From positions 1 to 64,000 of the forward strand of contig NZ_SMYN01000015.1 in assembly GCF_004959935.1 (NCBI RefSeq): a stretch of 64,000 bases of DNA, written 5' to 3'. Origin of the DNA: Falsirhodobacter xinxiangensis (GTDB taxonomy: Bacteria > Pseudomonadota > Alphaproteobacteria > Rhodobacterales > Rhodobacteraceae). The notes under the pieces are model-generated. The model made no database searches and was not told the origin of the DNA. It saw nothing but the letters and a program-made list of their open reading frames with translations. Position numbers and translations under genes: made by a program. Shown one piece after another: positions 9,043 to 16,435 of the stretch (its first letter is position 1; the number at the start of each line of letters is the position of its first letter).

Positions 9043-9188
9043 GTGATATCCCCCGGGCGCCGCGCCTCCACGCGCGGGCCTACGCTAAGAAGCGTAAGGG
9101 AGGGCGGGCGTTTCGCGCAACAGGCTTGCGGGGCTTGTGCTGGCGGCGGTGGGGGCTAATTTGCGGCTGGCTGCAAGGAGATGCCCCC

Positions 9189-11204
9189 GTGAGTCGCGAT
9201 CTGCCGTTCCAGTCCATCCACCGCCACGGATTCGTGCGCGTGGCGACCTGCACGCCTGCCGTGCGGCCCGCCGATGTGGCGTTCAACCGCGATGCCGTGC
9301 TGGAGCGGATGGCGGCGGCGGCGCGCGAGAAGGTCGATCTGCTGGTCTGTCCGGAATTGTGCCTGTCCTCCTATGCCATCGACGATCTGCATATGCAGGC
9401 GGCGCTGCTGGATGCGGTCGAGGATGCGGTGGGGGTGATCGCGGCGGCGAGCGAGGCGGCGGTGCTGATCGGCGCGCCGCTGCGGGACGGGGGGCGGATC
9501 TTCAACTGCGCGGTGGCGGTGGCGGGCGGCAGGGTGCTGGGCGTGGTGCCGAAGTCGTTCCTGCCGAATTACCGCGAGTATTACGAGAAACGCTGGTTCG
9601 CGCATGGGCGGGGGCAGCGGGGCGGGACGATCCGTGTGGCGGGGCAGGAGGTGCCGTTCGGCGTGGACCTGCTGTTCCGGTCGGAGGTGCTGCCCGGTTT
9701 CGTGTTCCATGCCGAGATCTGCGAGGATTTCTGGTCGCCGGAGCCGCCCTCGACCAAGGCGGCGCTTGCGGGGGCGGTGGTGCTGGCGAATCTTTCGGCG
9801 TCCAACATCACCATCGGCAAGGCGTCGGACCGGCATCTGCTGTGTGCCAGCCAGTCGATGCGGGCAGTCGCGGCCTATGCCTATTCCGCGGCCGGGTCGG
9901 GGGAAAGCACGACCGATCTGGCCTGGGACGGGCAGGGGGCGATCCACGAGTTGGGCGAGCTGCTGGCGGAATCGCCGCGTTTCGCGCTGGAGCCGCAGCT
10001 TTGCATCGCCGATGTGGATGTGGGGCGGATATTGTCCGAGCGGATGCGGACGGGGACGTTTGCGGATGCGGCCGAGGGCGTCGGCGGATACCGGGTGGTG
10101 GGGTTCGGGCATCCGGTGGGCGGGGCGGAGGATCTGCGGCGGTCCCTGCGGCGCTTCCCCTATGTGCCGAACCGCGAGGCGATGCGGGATCAGGATTGTT
10201 ACGAGGCGTTCTCGATCCAGGTGGACGGGCTGCGGCGGCGGTTCGAATCGACGCCGGTGAAGAATCTGGTCATCGGGATTTCGGGCGGGCTGGACAGCAC
10301 ACATGCGTTGATCGTGGCGGCGAAGGTGATGGACCTTCTGGGGCTGCCGCGCACGAACATCCTTGGCTTCACCATGCCCGGATTCGCGACGGGAGATGAG
10401 ACGAAGGGCAATGCCTGGGCGCTGATGCGCGCGCTGGGCATCAGCGCCGAGGAGATCGACATTCGCCCCGCCGCGCGGCAGATGCTGACCGATATGGGGC
10501 ATCCCTTTGCGGATGGCGAGCCGGTATATGACATCGCGTTCGAGAATGTGCAGGCCGGACTGCGGACCGATTACCTGTTCCGGTTGGCGAACCAGCGGGA
10601 CGGCTTCGTGATCGGGACGGGCGATCTGTCGGAGCTGGCGCTGGGCTGGTGCACCTATGGCGTAGGCGATCACATGAGCCATTACGGCGTGAATGCCGGG
10701 GTGCCGAAGACGCTGATCCAGTATCTGATCCGCTGGACGGCCGATACGCAGGTGGACGCGGGCGCGGCAGAGGTTCTGCGGCGCATTCTGGAGACGGAGA
10801 TTTCGCCGGAACTGGTGCCGGGCGAGGTCTTGCAGGGGACCGAGGCGAAGATCGGGCCGTATGAGCTGCACGATTTCTTTTTGTTCCACATCATGCGCTA
10901 TGGGTTCACGCCGTCGAAGTTGGCGTTTCTGGCCTGGCATGCGTGGCGGGACCGTGCGGCGGGCAATTGGCCTGCGGGATTCCCCGAGGGCAAGAAGAAC
11001 GAATACGATCTGGCGACCATCTGCAAATGGCTGGAAGGGTTCCTGTGGCGGTTCTTCCAGACGGCGCAGTTCAAGCGGTCCGCGCTGCCGAACGGGCCGA
11101 AGGTGTCTGCCGGCGGGGCGCTGTCGCCGCGCGGGGATTGGCGTGCGCCTTCGGACGGGGTGGCGAAGGTGTGGCTGGACGATCTGACGCGGGTGCCGCG
11201 CTAG
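9189..11204 (+). CDS. nadE: Glutamine-hydrolysing NAD+ synthetase
   Basis: Amidates deamido-NAD to NAD+ using ammonia from glutamine. The 671-residue enzyme has an N-terminal nitrilase domain with a Glu in CPELCLSSY, a Lys in VPKSFLPNY and the nucleophilic Cys in [10 protein letters not shown]-terminal ATP-pyrophosphatase domain follows, with the PP-loop [11 protein letters not shown]. Length matches the two-domain bacterial form. The start is GTG 9189, eight bases after AAGGAG; an earlier in-frame ATG at 9126 has no comparable ribosome site. Its stop overlaps that of the convergent regulator by four bases. Confidence 0.95.
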
Positions 11205-12223
11205 GTTCTGTGGCGATAGCGGGGCAAGGCGCCGTGACGCGCGCTCCATGCCTTGCGGAAGGCGGCGAGGGAGTTGAAGCCGGAGGCGAAGGCGATCTCG
11301 GTCAGGGTCATGTCGGTTTCGGACATCAGGCCATGCGCGCGGTCCAGCCGGATGCGGCGCAGGAATTTCGCGGGCGAGGTGCCGATATGGTCGTTGAACA
11401 GGCGTTCCACCTGACGGCGCGAGATTTTTTCGGCATCGAGGATGCCGGCGAGCGAGAATTCGTCGGCCCGTTCCTCGACCATCTGGCGGATGATGCGCAG
11501 AAGCACCGGGTGCCGCGTCTGATAGGTGGCGGCAAGCGAGACGCGCTGGCGGTCGTCGGCGATGCGGGAGCGACCGTGCAGGCACATGTCGGAGACCATC
11601 TGCGCCAACGCCGCGCCGTGGTCGGCGGCGATCAGCGCAGTCATCATGTCCACTGCCGCGTTGCCGCCGCCGCAGGTCAGCACGCGCTTGTGCTGGACAT
11701 AGAGCGCATCGGCAATGGCGAGGTCGGGGAAGTGTTCGGTGAAGGTGGGGTGGACCTCCCAATGGATGGTGAAGCCTGATCTTTCCAGAAGGCCCGCGCG
11801 GGCGAGGCTGAACGCCCCGGTGCAGAGGCCGCCGACCGTGCCGCCGTGGCGGGCATGGTCGCGCAGCCATGCCAGCGCGCGGGGCGATGCGGCAAGGTAT
11901 CCGTCCACACCCGAGCAGATGAAGGCCGTATCCTCGCGCGGGACGGTGGCAATGGCGCTGTCCACCGGGATCGCGATGCCGTTGGAACAGCGGACGGGCT
12001 GGCCATCCTCGGATTGCAGGAACCAGCGATAGAGGCACCGGCCCGTCAGCTGGTTGGCGATGCGCAGCGGTTCGACCGCCGATGAGAAGGCCAGCATCGT
12101 CATCCCGCGCAGAAGCAGGAAGTGGAAGTCGCGCGGCGCATCGACGGCGCGGATCGACAGATGGGCCGCGCCGCGGCTGACGAAGCGGCCGTTGTCGGCA
12201 GGGGGCTTGGGCTGAGCGTTCAT
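11201..12223 (-). CDS. GlxA-family AraC-type transcriptional regulator
   Basis: The 340-residue protein combines an N-terminal DJ-1/PfpI-like (glutamine amidotransferase-like) domain with a C-terminal AraC double helix-turn-helix. Visible marks are [16 protein letters not shown] at the nucleophile-elbow position, [14 protein letters not shown], and the AraC region with [20 protein letters not shown] and [15 protein letters not shown]. Relatives control nitrogenous osmolyte catabolism (GbdR, ArgR types), but no target is visible here. The start follows AGAGG by five bases; an in-frame opening at 12289 has weaker support. Confidence 0.85.
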
Positions 12224-12407
12224 TCTGGCCTCTCGCTTTGGGGTCAGCATCGCGCCGGGCGGGGCGGCGCGCTGTGCGGGGTGCGTCATCCCGTGATGCG
12301 AAGGCGACCTGCCGCTTGACCGGGATGGGGGCGGGGCTAGGTGGATTCTGGTTCCGTGCGGGTGCCGGGCTTTGGGGAAGGAAGCATACGAGGTGCAGAG
12401 GGTTACT

Positions 12408-13187
12408 GTGACGCAGGGCGGCTGGCGTGACCTTCTGGATATGCGGGACGGCGGTGGGCCGGCGCATCGCGCCTCGGCGGCGACGATGGCGCTTTATGGG
12501 CCAATCGCCGGTGCGCGGGGCCGGTTCTGTCTGGCGCAGGTCGGTCAATCGCTGGACGGGCGGATCGCGACCGTGTCCGGGGACGCGCGCGACGTGTCGG
12601 GGCAGGGCGGGCTGGTTCATCTGCATCGGTGTCGCGCGCTGGTGGATGCCGTGGTGGTGGGGATCGGGACCGTGCTGTCCGACGATCCGCGCCTGTCGGT
12701 GCGGCTGGCCGAGGGGCCGGACCCGGTACGCGTGGTGATCGACTGCAACGGTGTGATGCCCGCCGACGCGCAGATGCTGGAGGATGGCGGAACCGAGGTG
12801 ATCGTGGTGCAGGCCGATGACGTGCCGGTGCGGTTTGCCGGAACGATCCGCCTGCCGCGGGGGCCCAAGGGGCTTTGTCCGGGCGCAATACTGGACGCAT
12901 TGGCCGCGCGGGGGCTGTGCCGTGTGCTGATCGAGGGCGGGGCGCGGACCATCGCGCGATTCGTCGAGGCCGACCTGCTGGACCGGCTGCATGTGGCAGT
13001 TGCGCCGCTGATCATCGGGGCCGGACCATCGGGGATCAGCCTGCCCCCGGTGGAGCGGCTGTCGCAGGCGCGCCGCCCCGTGACCGAGGTTTACGACATG
13101 GGCAGCGACGTTCTGTTCGATTGCGTGCTGCGCCTGCCCTCAGCCGTCCGGCAGTGCCAGAAGATCGAGATGCCCCACGCGACATGA
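12408..13187 (+). CDS. RibD C-terminal (dihydrofolate-reductase-like) reductase
   Basis: A stand-alone RibD_C-type reductase (259 residues with this start), lacking the deaminase domain of bifunctional RibD. Typical elements are LAQVGQSLDGRIA, HLHRCRALVDAVVVGIGTVLSDDP, and VLIEGGARTIARFVEADLLD. Such domains reduce a ribosylamino-pyrimidine or related heterocycle with NADPH. The start is uncertain among TTG 12372, GTG 12393 and GTG 12408; AGAGG precedes the last. The gene converges on a methyltransferase and overlaps its 3' end by 48 bases. With the neighbouring pterin-synthase homologue, the substrate is more likely a pterin or pyrimidine intermediate than routine riboflavin synthesis (inference). 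Confidence 0.82.
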   Translation: MTQGGWRDLLDMRDGGGPAHRASAATMALYGPIAGARGRFCLAQVGQSLDGRIATVSGDARDVSGQGGLVHLHRCRALVDAVVVGIGTVLSDDPRLSVRLAEGPDPVRVVIDCNGVMPADAQMLEDGGTEVIVVQADDVPVRFAGTIRLPRGPKGLCPGAILDALAARGLCRVLIEGGARTIARFVEADLLDRLHVAVAPLIIGAGPSGISLPPVERLSQARRPVTEVYDMGSDVLFDCVLRLPSAVRQCQKIEMPHAT

Positions 13188-13868
13188 CCCCCGAGAGGCG
13201 AGACGCGCGGCGAGCCAGTCTTGCGTATCGATGCCGGTTGCAGCGGCGGCCTCTGCGACGCCCGTGACGAAGGCGGTGTGGAGCGGGCCGGGCTGGAGCA
13301 GCCACGGGCTGGGGGCGAGGGTGGCGCGAAGCCCCATCCCTTCGCAGCGTGCGGCAAGGATTTGCGCCGCCTCTGGCCCAGCGGCGGGGCCGAAACCCTT
13401 GTCGCGCCGCTGATGACGGTTGAAGGCGGCGACCACGGCACCGTCCTGTGGGTGCGGGTCGGACCATTCCATCATCCCGTCATAATTCAGCGCGGCATAG
13501 AGGCCGGTGCGTCTGCCAAGATGGGCAACGAAATCCGTAATGAAGGCGGGCGAGCAGAGGTCGAACAGGGCAGAGGCCGTGACCAGATCGGCGGTGGGAA
13601 GCGTGGAGAGGTCGGCGAGGTCGATCCGCAGGGTTTCGGCCTGGGGGTGGTTCTGTGCAGCTTCGGTCAGCAAGGCGGGATCGCGGTCGGCGAGGGTCCA
13701 GCGGGCGGGGCGGTTCACCGCGCGCAGGGTCGATCCGGTGCCGCAGCCGATGTCGAGGATGCGGGTGGCGGGCGTGATCCTTGCGCGGAAGGCGTCCAGC
13801 AGGGCGGGATCGCGGGCGGCGTGGTCGGCAGGCTCGCGCAGGGTCAGCCATGCGGCGGTGAAGCTCAT
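13140..13868 (-). CDS. Class I SAM-dependent methyltransferase
   Basis: The 242-residue product has the SAM-binding motif I RILDIGCGTGS near residue 40, an acidic residue after the second strand (LADRDPALL), and TADLVTASALFDLCSP at motif IV. It overlaps the upstream glycosyltransferase by the four bases ATGA, so the two are co-translated, in the order dehydrogenase - pterin-synthase homologue - glycosyltransferase - methyltransferase. Its substrate is unknown; context suggests it modifies the product of the neighbouring genes. Confidence 0.85.
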   Translation of the reverse strand: MSFTAAWLTLREPADHAARDPALLDAFRARITPATRILDIGCGTGSTLRAVNRPARWTLADRDPALLTEAAQNHPQAETLRIDLADLSTLPTADLVTASALFDLCSPAFITDFVAHLGRRTGLYAALNYDGMMEWSDPHPQDGAVVAAFNRHQRRDKGFGPAAGPEAAQILAARCEGMGLRATLAPSPWLLQPGPLHTAFVTGVAEAAAATGIDTQDWLAARLASRGSCRVGHLDLLALPDG

Positions 13869-14857
13869 GCCAGCGCCTCGGCGACGATGCGGGCGGTTTC
13901 GGTCCAGCGGGGCAGGGGTGTGCGGGCCGCGCCGGAGGCGAGGCGGCAGCGGGTGGCGGGATCGGTCAGCAGAAGGCGCAGGGCAGCGGCGAAGGCCGAG
14001 GCGTCGTTTGGCGGCACGAGGATGCCCGCGCGTTCCGGCACGACATCGGGGATCGCGCCCGCGCGGCAGGCAACGATGGGCAGGCCTTGGGACATCGCCT
14101 CGGCAAAGACCATGCCGTAGCCTTCGTATTTGCTGGCAAGGGCGAAGATGTTCGCGCGGGCCATAAGGGCGCGCGGGTCTGCGACCTCGCCCATGAAGGT
14201 GACGCGCGGGGTGGCGCGGGATTCGAGCGCGGCGGCGGTGGCGGGGTCGAGGCTGCGCGATCCGGCGATGATGCAGGTCCAGTCGAGGTCGTTTAGGGTT
14301 TCGAGCGCGTCCAGCAGGATGTCGTGCCCCTTTCGCGGGATCAGCGTGCCGATGGACAGGATCAGCGGCGGGGTGCTGCCCGTGGCCATCGGGGCCGGGT
14401 CGGTGCCGGGCAGGGCGACGGTGGCGTTGGGGATGCCGAACTGGGCGGCAAGGTCGCGCGCGGTTTGGGGCGAGGTGACGATGACGCGGGCGGCGGCTGC
14501 GAGGGCGCGGGTTTCGGATTGGCGCAGGGCGGTTTCGGTTTCCGGCGGCAGGCCGCCTTCCAGCGCCAGCGGGTGATGGACCAGCGCGGTGATGTCCAGC
14601 GTCGAGCGGGCGGCCCATGCGTCCAGCACGCCATAGGCGAGGCCGTCGATCAGGATACGGCTGCCTTGGGGCAGGGCGTCCAGCGCGGCTTCGGCTTTGC
14701 TGCGGGTGTCCGGCGAGGGGTTCGGAAAGCCTTCGCCGAGCGGCAGCAGGTCCACCTGCCAGCCCAGCTTGCGCAGTTCCGCGATCAGGCGGCGGTCATA
14801 GGCGTAGCCGCCCGTGGGCAGGTCCAGATCGCCGGGATAGGCGAAGGTGAGCTTCAC
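13865..14857 (-). CDS. GT4-family glycosyltransferase
   Basis: A GT-B fold retaining glycosyltransferase (330 residues). The N-terminal glycine-rich turn is PTGGYAYDRRL. The nucleotide-sugar side has LILSIGTLIPRKGHDILLDAL and the EX7E pair in YEGYGMVFAEAMSQGLP. No membrane segment is evident, so a small soluble acceptor is plausible. The GTG start overlaps the upstream gene's stop (GTGA). Being coupled to a pterin-synthase homologue and a methyltransferase argues for glycosylation of a small heterocycle rather than cell-envelope sugar synthesis (inference). Confidence 0.87.
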   Translation of the reverse strand: MKLTFAYPGDLDLPTGGYAYDRRLIAELRKLGWQVDLLPLGEGFPNPSPDTRSKAEAALDALPQGSRILIDGLAYGVLDAWAARSTLDITALVHHPLALEGGLPPETETALRQSETRALAAAARVIVTSPQTARDLAAQFGIPNATVALPGTDPAPMATGSTPPLILSIGTLIPRKGHDILLDALETLNDLDWTCIIAGSRSLDPATAAALESRATPRVTFMGEVADPRALMARANIFALASKYEGYGMVFAEAMSQGLPIVACRAGAIPDVVPERAGILVPPNDASAFAAALRLLLTDPATRCRLASGAARTPLPRWTETARIVAEALA

Positions 14858-15231
14858 AGGTCGGCCTCGTACCAGCCGCGGGCGGCGTGGGATTCGTGTA
14901 GCGTCACGCGGATGCGGGCGATGTTCGGGCCGATGCGCTCTGCGCGGGCGGCCAGTTGGTCGAAGATGTGCTTGGCAAGGAATTCGGTGGTGGTGATCTT
15001 GCCCGGCAGTACCTCGTCAAGGTTCTTGTAGTTGAGGGGGGCGAGGGCTTCCTTCAGTTCGGTGGTGGCGAGGCCGATGTCGATGGCGAGGCCGTCCTCG
15101 TCCAGCTCTCGGGCGAAGAAGGCGGCATCGACGACGAAGGTCGCGCCGTGCATCCCCTGGGCCGGGCCGAAGACCGGGCGGGGCAGGGAATGGGCGATCA
15201 TGATGTGATCGCGGACCTCGATGGCGAACAT
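14854..15231 (-). CDS. 6-pyruvoyl-tetrahydropterin synthase / QueD homologue with altered active site
   Basis: The 125-residue protein has the PTPS/QueD layout: IAHSLP near the N-terminus gives the first zinc-ligand His, and a catalytic-type Glu lies near the end (HESHAARGWYEADL). The family motif CxxxHGH is replaced by AQGMHGA, so the catalytic Cys and the third zinc His are missing while one His of the pair is kept. Family members normally act on dihydroneopterin triphosphate. The altered site suggests a different reaction or metal geometry. It sits nine bases after the dehydrogenase gene and overlaps the glycosyltransferase by four. Confidence 0.8.
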   Translation of the reverse strand: MFAIEVRDHIMIAHSLPRPVFGPAQGMHGATFVVDAAFFARELDEDGLAIDIGLATTELKEALAPLNYKNLDEVLPGKITTTEFLAKHIFDQLAARAERIGPNIARIRVTLHESHAARGWYEADL

Positions 15232-15240
15232 GGCGGGCTC

Positions 15241-16170
15241 CTAGTAGCGGATGCGGTGGCAGATGGTGTCCGGCGCGGAGAGGATTTCGCCGTAGCGGGC
15301 GGGCAGGTCGTCGAAAGCGGTCTCGCCGGTGATGAGGGCGTCGAGCGCGGGGTCGCGCAGGAGGTCGAGCGCCTTTTGCATCCGGCGGGTGTGGGTCCAG
15401 CTGGGGCGGCGGGTTGGCGGCAGGTTTCCGACCTGCGATCCGGCGATGCGCAGGCGGTTCGCGTGGAACGCGCCGCCAAGGGGGATGGTGACGGGGGCGG
15501 GGTGCCAGCTTGCCTCGACGATGAGGCTGTCGGGGGCGGCGTGGTCGATGGCGGTGGCGAGCGCGTCCGCCGAGGCGCTGGCGTTGATGGCGATGTCAGA
15601 TCCGGGTTGGGGCGGGCCGAAGGGGATGTTCAGCGCGCGGGCCGGGGTGGCGCGGGCGGGGTTGGGGTCGGTCAGGCGCAGGTCCGTGCCGGGGATGCGC
15701 GCGGCGATCCATGCCGTCAGAAGGCCGACCGTGCCTGCGCCGAAGATGTTCACCCGGTCGCCGGGGGCGATCCCGGCATCCCAGACGATGTTCAGCGCGG
15801 TTTCCATGTTGGCCGCGAGGATGGCGCGTTCGGGGGGCAGGCCGGGGGGGAGGGGGTATGCCTCGGGCGCGTCGAACTGGGTCTGGTGGGGGTGGAGGCA
15901 GAAGACGGGGATGTCTCCGGCAAGGCCGACGGTGGCGTAGCCGTATTTGACGGGGAAGGGAAAGCTGCCGCCCTGGTTCGGGCCGCGCATCCGGTCGTAC
16001 TCGCTTGGCGGGACGCGTCCTGAGAAGACCATCGCCTCGGTTCCCCGGCTGATGCCGCCGAACAAGGCGCGGATGCGGGTCTGGCCGGGGGGCGTGGGGG
16101 GCAGGGTTTCCGCGCGAAGCTCAGCTTCTTGGGCGCGGGGGAACCAGAGGGCGCGGGCGGTGTCGGGCAA
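15241..16170 (-). CDS. Medium-chain dehydrogenase of the zinc-less 'dehydrogenase' group
   Basis: A 309-residue MDR-fold protein with a Rossmann motif NIFGAGTVGLLTAW near residue 140. At the usual catalytic zinc site (GxCGTD) it reads GGISRGTEAMVF, with no Cys, as in BchC-like proteins and a pterin-cluster dehydrogenase group. FPFPVKYGYATVG and VFCLHPHQ follow. No four-Cys structural zinc loop is seen. The start is TTG 16170, eight bases after AGGA; a much longer in-frame opening to 16347 would run through the TPP riboswitch. It heads the four-gene coupled unit 16170-13140. Confidence 0.8.
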   Translation of the reverse strand: MPDTARALWFPRAQEAELRAETLPPTPPGQTRIRALFGGISRGTEAMVFSGRVPPSEYDRMRGPNQGGSFPFPVKYGYATVGLAGDIPVFCLHPHQTQFDAPEAYPLPPGLPPERAILAANMETALNIVWDAGIAPGDRVNIFGAGTVGLLTAWIAARIPGTDLRLTDPNPARATPARALNIPFGPPQPGSDIAINASASADALATAIDHAAPDSLIVEASWHPAPVTIPLGGAFHANRLRIAGSQVGNLPPTRRPSWTHTRRMQKALDLLRDPALDALITGETAFDDLPARYGEILSAPDTICHRIRY

Positions 16171-16278
16171 TGGGTTTTTCCTGAGGGCTGCTTGGCAGCT
16201 AGTGTCGTGCGGGGCCGGGGCAAGGCTGCAAATCCGGGCTGGACGGGGGAAGGGCGCGCGGATAGGCTTTGTCTTGAT

Positions 16279-16367
16279 TATCCGTTGGGGTGCCCTGCGA
16301 GGGGCTGAGAGGCGATGCGCCAACCCATCGAACCTGATCCGGGTCATGCCGGCGGAGGGAACGGATA
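16279..16367 (+). ncRNA. TPP riboswitch (THI element)
   Basis: The thi-box core is present: GGGGTGCC, then GGGGCTGAGAGG, then ACCTGATCCGGGTCATGCCG and GCGGAGGGAA. The closing stem P1 is exact, TATCCGTT at 16279-16286 with AACGGATA at 16360-16367. It precedes thiD by 69 bases. Binding of thiamine pyrophosphate should switch off the downstream thiDOSGEF genes. Confidence 0.96.
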
Positions 16368-16435
16368 GGCGGCGCTTTTCCCGGCGCGGCCGTCTTGTCT
16401 TTCGTCGTCGCCCCCGGTCCGACCGAGGAGGGAAG

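Follow-up and report, generated by a model that had tools for sequence, protein, structure and literature searches.

A conserved PTPS-IV operon in Falsirhodobacter xinxiangensis and a possible route from the RibA product to a methylated pterin-type compound

A 64,000-nucleotide stretch of Falsirhodobacter xinxiangensis DNA (contig NZ_SMYN01000015.1, positions 1 to 64,000; hereafter the window) carries a packed operon of four minus-strand genes and a RibD-C reductase gene that converges on them. An earlier note, made from the sequence of the window, had assigned these genes to a pterin-type pathway. Our results supported this general idea of a pterin-family pathway that is not the queuosine pathway. 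By its signature motif, the 6-pyruvoyltetrahydropterin synthase (PTPS) homologue of the operon is a member of PTPS-IV, a named but uncharacterised subfamily of COG0720. For the source of the heterocycle and the order of the steps, we infer a route fed by GTP cyclohydrolase II (RibA). The operon may divert the RibA product, 2,5-diamino-6-ribosylamino-4-pyrimidinone 5'-phosphate (DARPP), towards a methylated compound of pterin type, which we regard as possible, though short of probable. The five genes are as follows.

15241–16170, minus strand: MDR-type dehydrogenase (DH) lacking the GHE motif of the zinc site; heads the packed operon, with a TTG start at 16170
14854–15231, minus strand: PTPS-IV protein (COG0720 subfamily, motif FGPAQ); Pfam PTPS, 68.4 bits
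13865–14857, minus strand: GT4-family glycosyltransferase (GT4); Pfam GT4, 111.6 bits
13140–13868, minus strand: class I S-adenosylmethionine-dependent methyltransferase (MT); family match, 36.4 bits
12372–13187, plus strand: RibD-C/RIB7-like reductase (RDC); RibD_C, 119.3 bits; convergent with MT

The PTPS homologue is a PTPS-IV protein and not QueD

The motif FGPAQ, the signature of PTPS-IV (PMC5445326), was found in the window protein and in all aligned sequences (23/23 in alignment A1 and 22/22 in alignment A4). When the protein was aligned with the QueD of the same genome, the catalytic Cys was replaced by Ala24, the third metal-binding His by Ala30 and the Asp-His pair by Asn67-Tyr68, and His14 and His28 were retained; these catalytic and metal-binding roles are the ones that we take the aligned QueD residues to have. 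The automatic alignment paired the pterin-anchoring Glu of QueD with His115. Judged by the local pattern common to both proteins, this Glu apparently corresponds to the invariant Glu113. Forty-two columns were invariant in 22 diverse PTPS-IV sequences, including His9, His14, His28, Asp51, Tyr68, Asp72, Glu83 and Glu113. PTPS-IV thus resembles QueD and PTPS-I in fold, in two metal-ligand His residues and apparently in the Glu anchor, but lacks their CxxxHGH motif and Asp-His pair.

The window protein scored 34.5 bits against the QueD NCBIfam model, whose cut-off is 89.25, and a separate canonical QueD with CxxxHGH is present in the genome. QueD identity and a role in queuosine synthesis were rejected on the residues, the score and this separate QueD, in agreement with the earlier note, which had not treated the protein as an ordinary QueD. 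A search with the genome's own QueD, run without a positive control, matched 0 of the 131 loci compared at E 1e-10. The note had also derived the heterocycle from the PTPS-like enzyme; this is doubtful because the canonical catalytic residues are absent. The structure prediction that it had proposed as a check gave an AlphaFold model with a pLDDT of 92.9. The best structure match was SCO6650 of Streptomyces coelicolor (3d7j; TM 0.92, 54% identity), which was also the top sequence match, followed by QueD/PTPS structures. The molecule name in the 3d7j entry is "Uncharacterized protein", and the only relationship given there is homology to 6-pyruvoyltetrahydropterin synthase.

Both the subfamily and some of its neighbourhood have been published before. 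The PTPS-IV neighbourhood was reported to hold PF00925 and PF01872 (cluster-node 62, 561 sequences; PMC5445326), where PF00925 is worded as "GTP cyclohydrolase I / FolE2", although Pfam's name for it is GTP_cyclohydro2. PTPS-IV was also stated to be involved in archaeal F420 synthesis, with unpublished work cited (Zallot et al. 2016, PMC5041015). The accessible parts of these two papers name no DH, MT, GT4, CDP-alcohol transferase or b561 partner, no mechanism and no product. A literature search, with supplements outside its scope, found no further publication on the full cluster. Consistently with the published neighbourhood, RibA was found at 16/22 and RibD-C at 21/22 loci of the order; the window has RibD-C alone, with RibA unlinked.

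PTPS, DH and the cluster-type RDC occur in the same genomes

In a sample of 244 genomes of the order, window genome counted, an orthologous PTPS (59–100% identity) was found in 23, namely the window genome and 22 relatives. A further 19 genomes gave weak PTPS matches alone (E 3e-6 or worse). The DH profile (E up to 1e-30) matched exactly these 23 genomes, and the RDC profile scored 285–400 bits in exactly the same 23; the next listed RDC score was 151 bits, below which the scores run on continuously and take in housekeeping RibD. In one genome (G141), about 360 kb separate the RDC and PTPS genes. The chance that two independent, randomly drawn subsets of 23 among 244 genomes coincide is about 1e-32, kinship ignored, and presence is patchy within genera (genus g7 has members with and without the genes). 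The co-occurrence of PTPS, DH and cluster-type RDC therefore far exceeds chance, kinship uncorrected, and the gene set is co-conserved and uncharacterised, as the earlier note had expected.

The note had placed the set in Rhodobacterales. It is present there, but its range is far wider and extends to Rhizobiales, Gammaproteobacteria and Actinobacteria. Scanning a species-level genome set with the PTPS alignment gave at least 582 confirmed stretches, of which 80 were kept as named loci. Their titles include Rhizobiales, Rhodobacterales, Elstera, Arenibaculum, one Xanthomonas, one Pseudohaliea and two "Aquiluna" metagenome-assembled genomes, which may be binning errors. The closest named relative of the PTPS protein among the matches listed was that of Cereibacter flavus (96%). 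In a phylum sample of 398 genomes, 27 had a PTPS homologue, 11 of them outside the class. Plasmid records with a homologue come from two phyla (Streptomyces, Arthrobacter, Microbacterium, Methylosinus, Thiodictyon); 21 were matched and 8 opened as loci, and 14 of the 21 annotate the protein as 6-carboxytetrahydropterin synthase. No PTPS-IV relative was confirmed in the viral_contigs search, and viral carriage was rejected.

Over 127 distinct loci (the 131 compared without the duplicates L105, L116, L176 and L179), the profiles matched DH at 124, MT at 117, GT4 at 106 and RDC at 100. The partner families were CDP-alcohol phosphotransferase (67), RibA (57), flippase-like protein (57), sulfatase-fold protein (55), cytochrome b561 (52), IMPase (38) and MdoH (33). 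Genes for an MdoH-like glucan glucosyltransferase and cytochrome b561 recur by the operon (L050, L055, L146 and others). MT was not matched at 5/20 phylum loci, which may be a threshold or frame effect, and only DH, PTPS and GT4 were detected at the Arthrobacter locus. On the Agrobacterium tumefaciens plasmid pAt of strain Yub001 (L148), the operon is complete and is accompanied by RibA, CDP-alcohol transferase, a flippase-like protein, a sulfatase and a b561-type cytochrome. The species has been reported to produce a pterin, for which 2'-O-methylmonapterin is the proposed identity (PMC13259868).

RDC is predicted to use a 2-amino substrate

The RDC protein has no deaminase domain and consists of a single RibD-C domain. 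Its catalytic Asp and Glu-Gly-Gly were kept in 12/12 aligned sequences; of a wider set of 84 relatives (2 of them duplicate loci), 83 have Glu-Gly-Gly and 75 show the Asp pattern. At the specificity position, which corresponds to Lys152 of EcRibD, 82 of the 84 had Gln and none had Lys, and 2 gave no pattern match. The Thiodictyon RDC has His there, the window genome's own RibD has Lys, and the solved DARPP-type reductases 2azn and 6p8c have Asn. Lys at this position (EcRibD Lys152/BsRibG Lys151) was reported to favour the deaminated substrate, and with the T35K change yeast RIB7 came to prefer the 2-oxo over the 2-amino substrate (PMC3631187). Since the cluster RDC has Gln and not Lys, a 2-amino substrate (DARPP) is predicted, which would lead to a pterin-type and not a flavin-type ring. 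The protein is like the RIB7-type DARPP reductases (2azn of M. jannaschii, yeast RIB7) in its single RibD-C domain, its non-Lys specificity residue and its catalytic Asp and Glu, but differs in the residue itself, which is Gln here, Asn in 2azn and 6p8c and Thr in yeast. Against the archaeal equivalog TIGR01508 it scored 101.4 bits, below the cut-off of 186.45.

RibA recurs as an extra copy at the cluster

No GTP cyclohydrolase was matched in the window, as the earlier note had stated. Other contigs of the window genome (80 contigs, 99.6% complete) carry FolE2, one strong RibA (over 165 bits) and a RibB whose RibA-like domain is weak; a search for FolE1 gave no match in this genome. The neighbourhood comparison that the note had proposed, cyclohydrolase partners included, showed a conserved neighbourhood whose recurrent cyclohydrolase partner is RibA and apparently not GTP cyclohydrolase I. 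All 16 relatives with an in-cluster RibA had a second strong RibA elsewhere (16/16). In contrast, one strong copy was found in the 7 cluster genomes without in-cluster RibA, window genome included, and in 6/6 sampled genomes lacking the cluster. A search with the genome's own FolE2, for which a positive control was run, matched 0/131 loci at E 1e-5; FolE1 was not searched at the loci. The heterocycle source is probably other than GTP cyclohydrolase I. An IMPase-like gene was found at 17/22 order loci. At a Streptomyces locus, RibA adjoins a gene of the creatininase family, which includes the archaeal ArfB deformylase.

DH has an MDR fold

The motif-based family assignments of the earlier note were backed by Pfam matches for PTPS, GT4, RibD_C and methyltransferase. 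For DH no Pfam family passed its cut-off, but the AlphaFold model (pLDDT 93.8) showed a clear MDR alcohol-dehydrogenase fold. The best NCBIfam match was the bacteriochlorophyll dehydrogenase BchC, at 36.9 bits far under the BchC cut-off of 291.25. GHE, the zinc-site motif of zinc-dependent MDR alcohol dehydrogenases, was absent from 16/16 aligned DH sequences. Structure matches of the model include threonine, idonate, xylitol and sorbitol dehydrogenases and TarJ. The polyol dehydrogenases among them would give generic support only for an oxidation of the ribityl chain.

GT4 is shared with an envelope/lipid module

The CDP-alcohol transferase retains what we take to be its catalytic motif. Relatives of it (E 1e-15) were found in 51/244 order genomes, 20/23 with the operon and 31/221 without (Fisher p 8.7e-13, kinship uncorrected); the operon genomes without a relative are G110, G141 and G227. 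Eight of the 31 operon-free genomes were inspected, and in 8/8 the module consisted of CDP-alcohol transferase, a sulfatase-fold protein, a flippase-like protein and GT4. Seven operon genomes have no GT4 at the operon: six have it in the envelope module, and in one the contig ends too early. In the tree, operon GT4s and those from the eight operon-free genomes are intermixed. The window genome has an envelope module without GT4 on another contig (L198).

From this placement and the tree, GT4 either acts in both the pterin and the envelope half or is part of the latter. The idea of a GT4 specific for the pterin was dropped, given its relatives in envelope modules of operon-free genomes. The sharing opens a lipid- or glycan-linked reading. 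Of the glycosylated and methylated pterin that the earlier note had proposed, a methylated pterin-type compound is therefore the more secure part and glycosylation the less secure one.

A possible RibA-fed route

In the route that we propose, RibA would make DARPP, in the window genome from the unlinked single strong copy. RDC would reduce the ribosyl chain with the 2-amino group retained, giving ribityl-diaminopyrimidine phosphate, and a phosphatase, for which the IMPase-like gene of many order relatives is a candidate, would take off the phosphate. DH may then convert the ribityl 2' hydroxyl to a ketone, with which the 5-amino group would condense to close the second ring. The result would be a 7,8-dihydropterin that carries a trihydroxypropyl side chain. 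Such a closure would need no GTP cyclohydrolase I, and its net result would equal the Amadori rearrangement of FolE. PTPS-IV may bind the intermediate via its conserved Glu and either assist the closure or reshape the side chain by non-standard PTPS chemistry. MT would methylate the product, and GT4 probably links the product, or its carrier, to the envelope/lipid module of CDP-alcohol phosphotransferase, flippase-like protein and sulfatase-fold protein.

This RibA-fed route is supported by the shared 23/244 genomes of PTPS-IV, DH and cluster-type RDC and by the extra RibA copy, by the lack of FolE2 at the loci, and by an RDC that has Gln in place of Lys and keeps the catalytic Asp and Glu-Gly-Gly. 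The pairing of Streptomyces RibA with a creatininase-family protein, the polyol dehydrogenases that match the DH model, the His14, His28 and Glu113 kept in PTPS-IV and the IMPase-like gene point the same way. Toxoflavin-type pathways are alike in that RibA-like and RibD-like enzymes feed a methylated pteridine-like product, but that product is a 7-azapteridine, and their cluster is not known to contain PTPS-IV or an MDR.

Several observations weigh against the route. The reactions and the product are predicted from the observed gene content, conservation, co-occurrence, residue differences and folds. RibA is unlinked in the window genome. Among the named loci, 16 with cut flanks were left out, and the remaining 64 contain 62 distinct ones; of these 62, 27 have RibA and 16 have IMPase. 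RDC is missing from 15/62 (15/64 before removing duplicates), and the 15 genomes hold no cluster-type RDC elsewhere: in searches with the RDC profile, 4 score only 107–119 bits and the other 11 give nothing at E 1e-30. RDC is therefore replaceable or not essential. The Streptomyces creatininase is closer to MftE (best NCBIfam match, 141 bits) than to ArfB (37). The fold match of DH is generic for MDRs, as quinone oxidoreductases and liver alcohol dehydrogenases were also matched. Finally, 2/8 plasmid loci, both from Streptomyces, hold the PTPS-IV gene without the rest of the unit, and the loss of catalytic residues would suit a non-catalytic binder equally well.

Such a binder or carrier is one of two rivals that we consider unlikely. 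The operon would then make or sense a pyrimidine or pterin signal, with DH, RDC and MT alone doing the core chemistry. The missing catalytic Cys, Asp and His and one metal His in a fold predicted to be intact agree with it, as do the two solo genes, whereas the 42 invariant columns look like a preserved, altered active site. These solo genes (L144, 12001–12426; L150, 10001–10399) lie near cupin and MBL-fold genes, and no DH, GT4, MT or RibD-C was matched at the two loci.

The other rival, to which we give a similarly small chance, is a flavin, lumazine or deazaflavin (F420-like) derivative, for which RibA and RibD-C would supply ribitylaminopyrimidine for a modified flavin-type cofactor. Both belong to riboflavin-pathway families, and the role in archaeal F420 synthesis ascribed to PTPS-IV (PMC5041015) fits. 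However, Gln stands in RDC where a Lys would favour the deaminated precursor of flavins, and no lumazine or riboflavin synthase or F420 gene was seen among the identified recurrent neighbours (c10, c14 and a LysR-like cluster excluded, no dedicated models).

Improbable, finally, is a modification of a classical pterin from dihydroneopterin triphosphate (made by FolE2 here), on which PTPS-IV would act before reduction, methylation and glycosylation: the genome has FolE2, and the PTPS fold and apparently the anchor Glu are kept, but it is RibA and not FolE2 that recurs at the loci, PTPS-IV has lost the catalytic Cys/Asp/His, and the named RibD-C members are pyrimidine-riboside reductases.

The RibA-fed route has a bolder version, which we also consider improbable. 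A methylated pterin formed independently of GTP cyclohydrolase I would be borne by a glycosylated phospholipid or envelope glycan, which the module of CDP-alcohol transferase, GT4 and flippase-like protein would make. This pterin would be anchored in the membrane, be redox-active or absorb light, and have cytochrome b561 as its partner.

Gene layout and flanking genes

The reading frames bore out the four packed minus-strand genes and the convergent RibD-C gene described in the earlier note. Nine bp separate the DH stop (15241) from the PTPS start (15231), 4-bp overlaps were found at PTPS/GT4 and at GT4/MT, and MT and RDC overlap by 48 bp at their 3' ends (13140 and 13187). The RDC start codon is uncertain because homology begins only at about 12399. 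The TTG at 16170 is a plausible DH start. Compared with Cereibacter flavus (L063), dN/dS was 0.20 for DH, 0.11 for PTPS, 0.15 for GT4, 0.16 for MT and 0.10 for RDC; the five genes are intact, real and under purifying selection.

A thiamin pyrophosphate (TPP) riboswitch (RF00059, 75.6 bits) lies at 16276–16377 on the plus strand, divergent from the operon, and the plus-strand reading frames after it resemble, on visual inspection, thiamin biosynthesis genes. The long DH frame extends upstream into this riboswitch, so the start at 16170 is favoured. Riboswitch control of the operon was rejected, as the TPP riboswitch is the sole one above the Rfam threshold in the window and is on the opposite strand. 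The operon is also flanked by an NAD synthase (9126–11204, plus strand; 1023.6 bits to PRK02628) and a GbdR-like AraC-family regulator (11201–12289, minus strand). The same neighbourhood is kept in Cereibacter flavus; in a genus mate (L036), neither gene was matched within 19 kb.

Implications

If the RibA-fed reading is true, the whole PTPS subfamily would be separated from queuosine, and pterins would have a second biosynthetic origin. It would also provide candidate genes for how bacteria place pterins outside the cytoplasm; according to PMC13259868, no pterin efflux system has been identified so far. This would concern a widespread type of PTPS, found in at least 582 stretches of the species-level genome set and on plasmids of two phyla.

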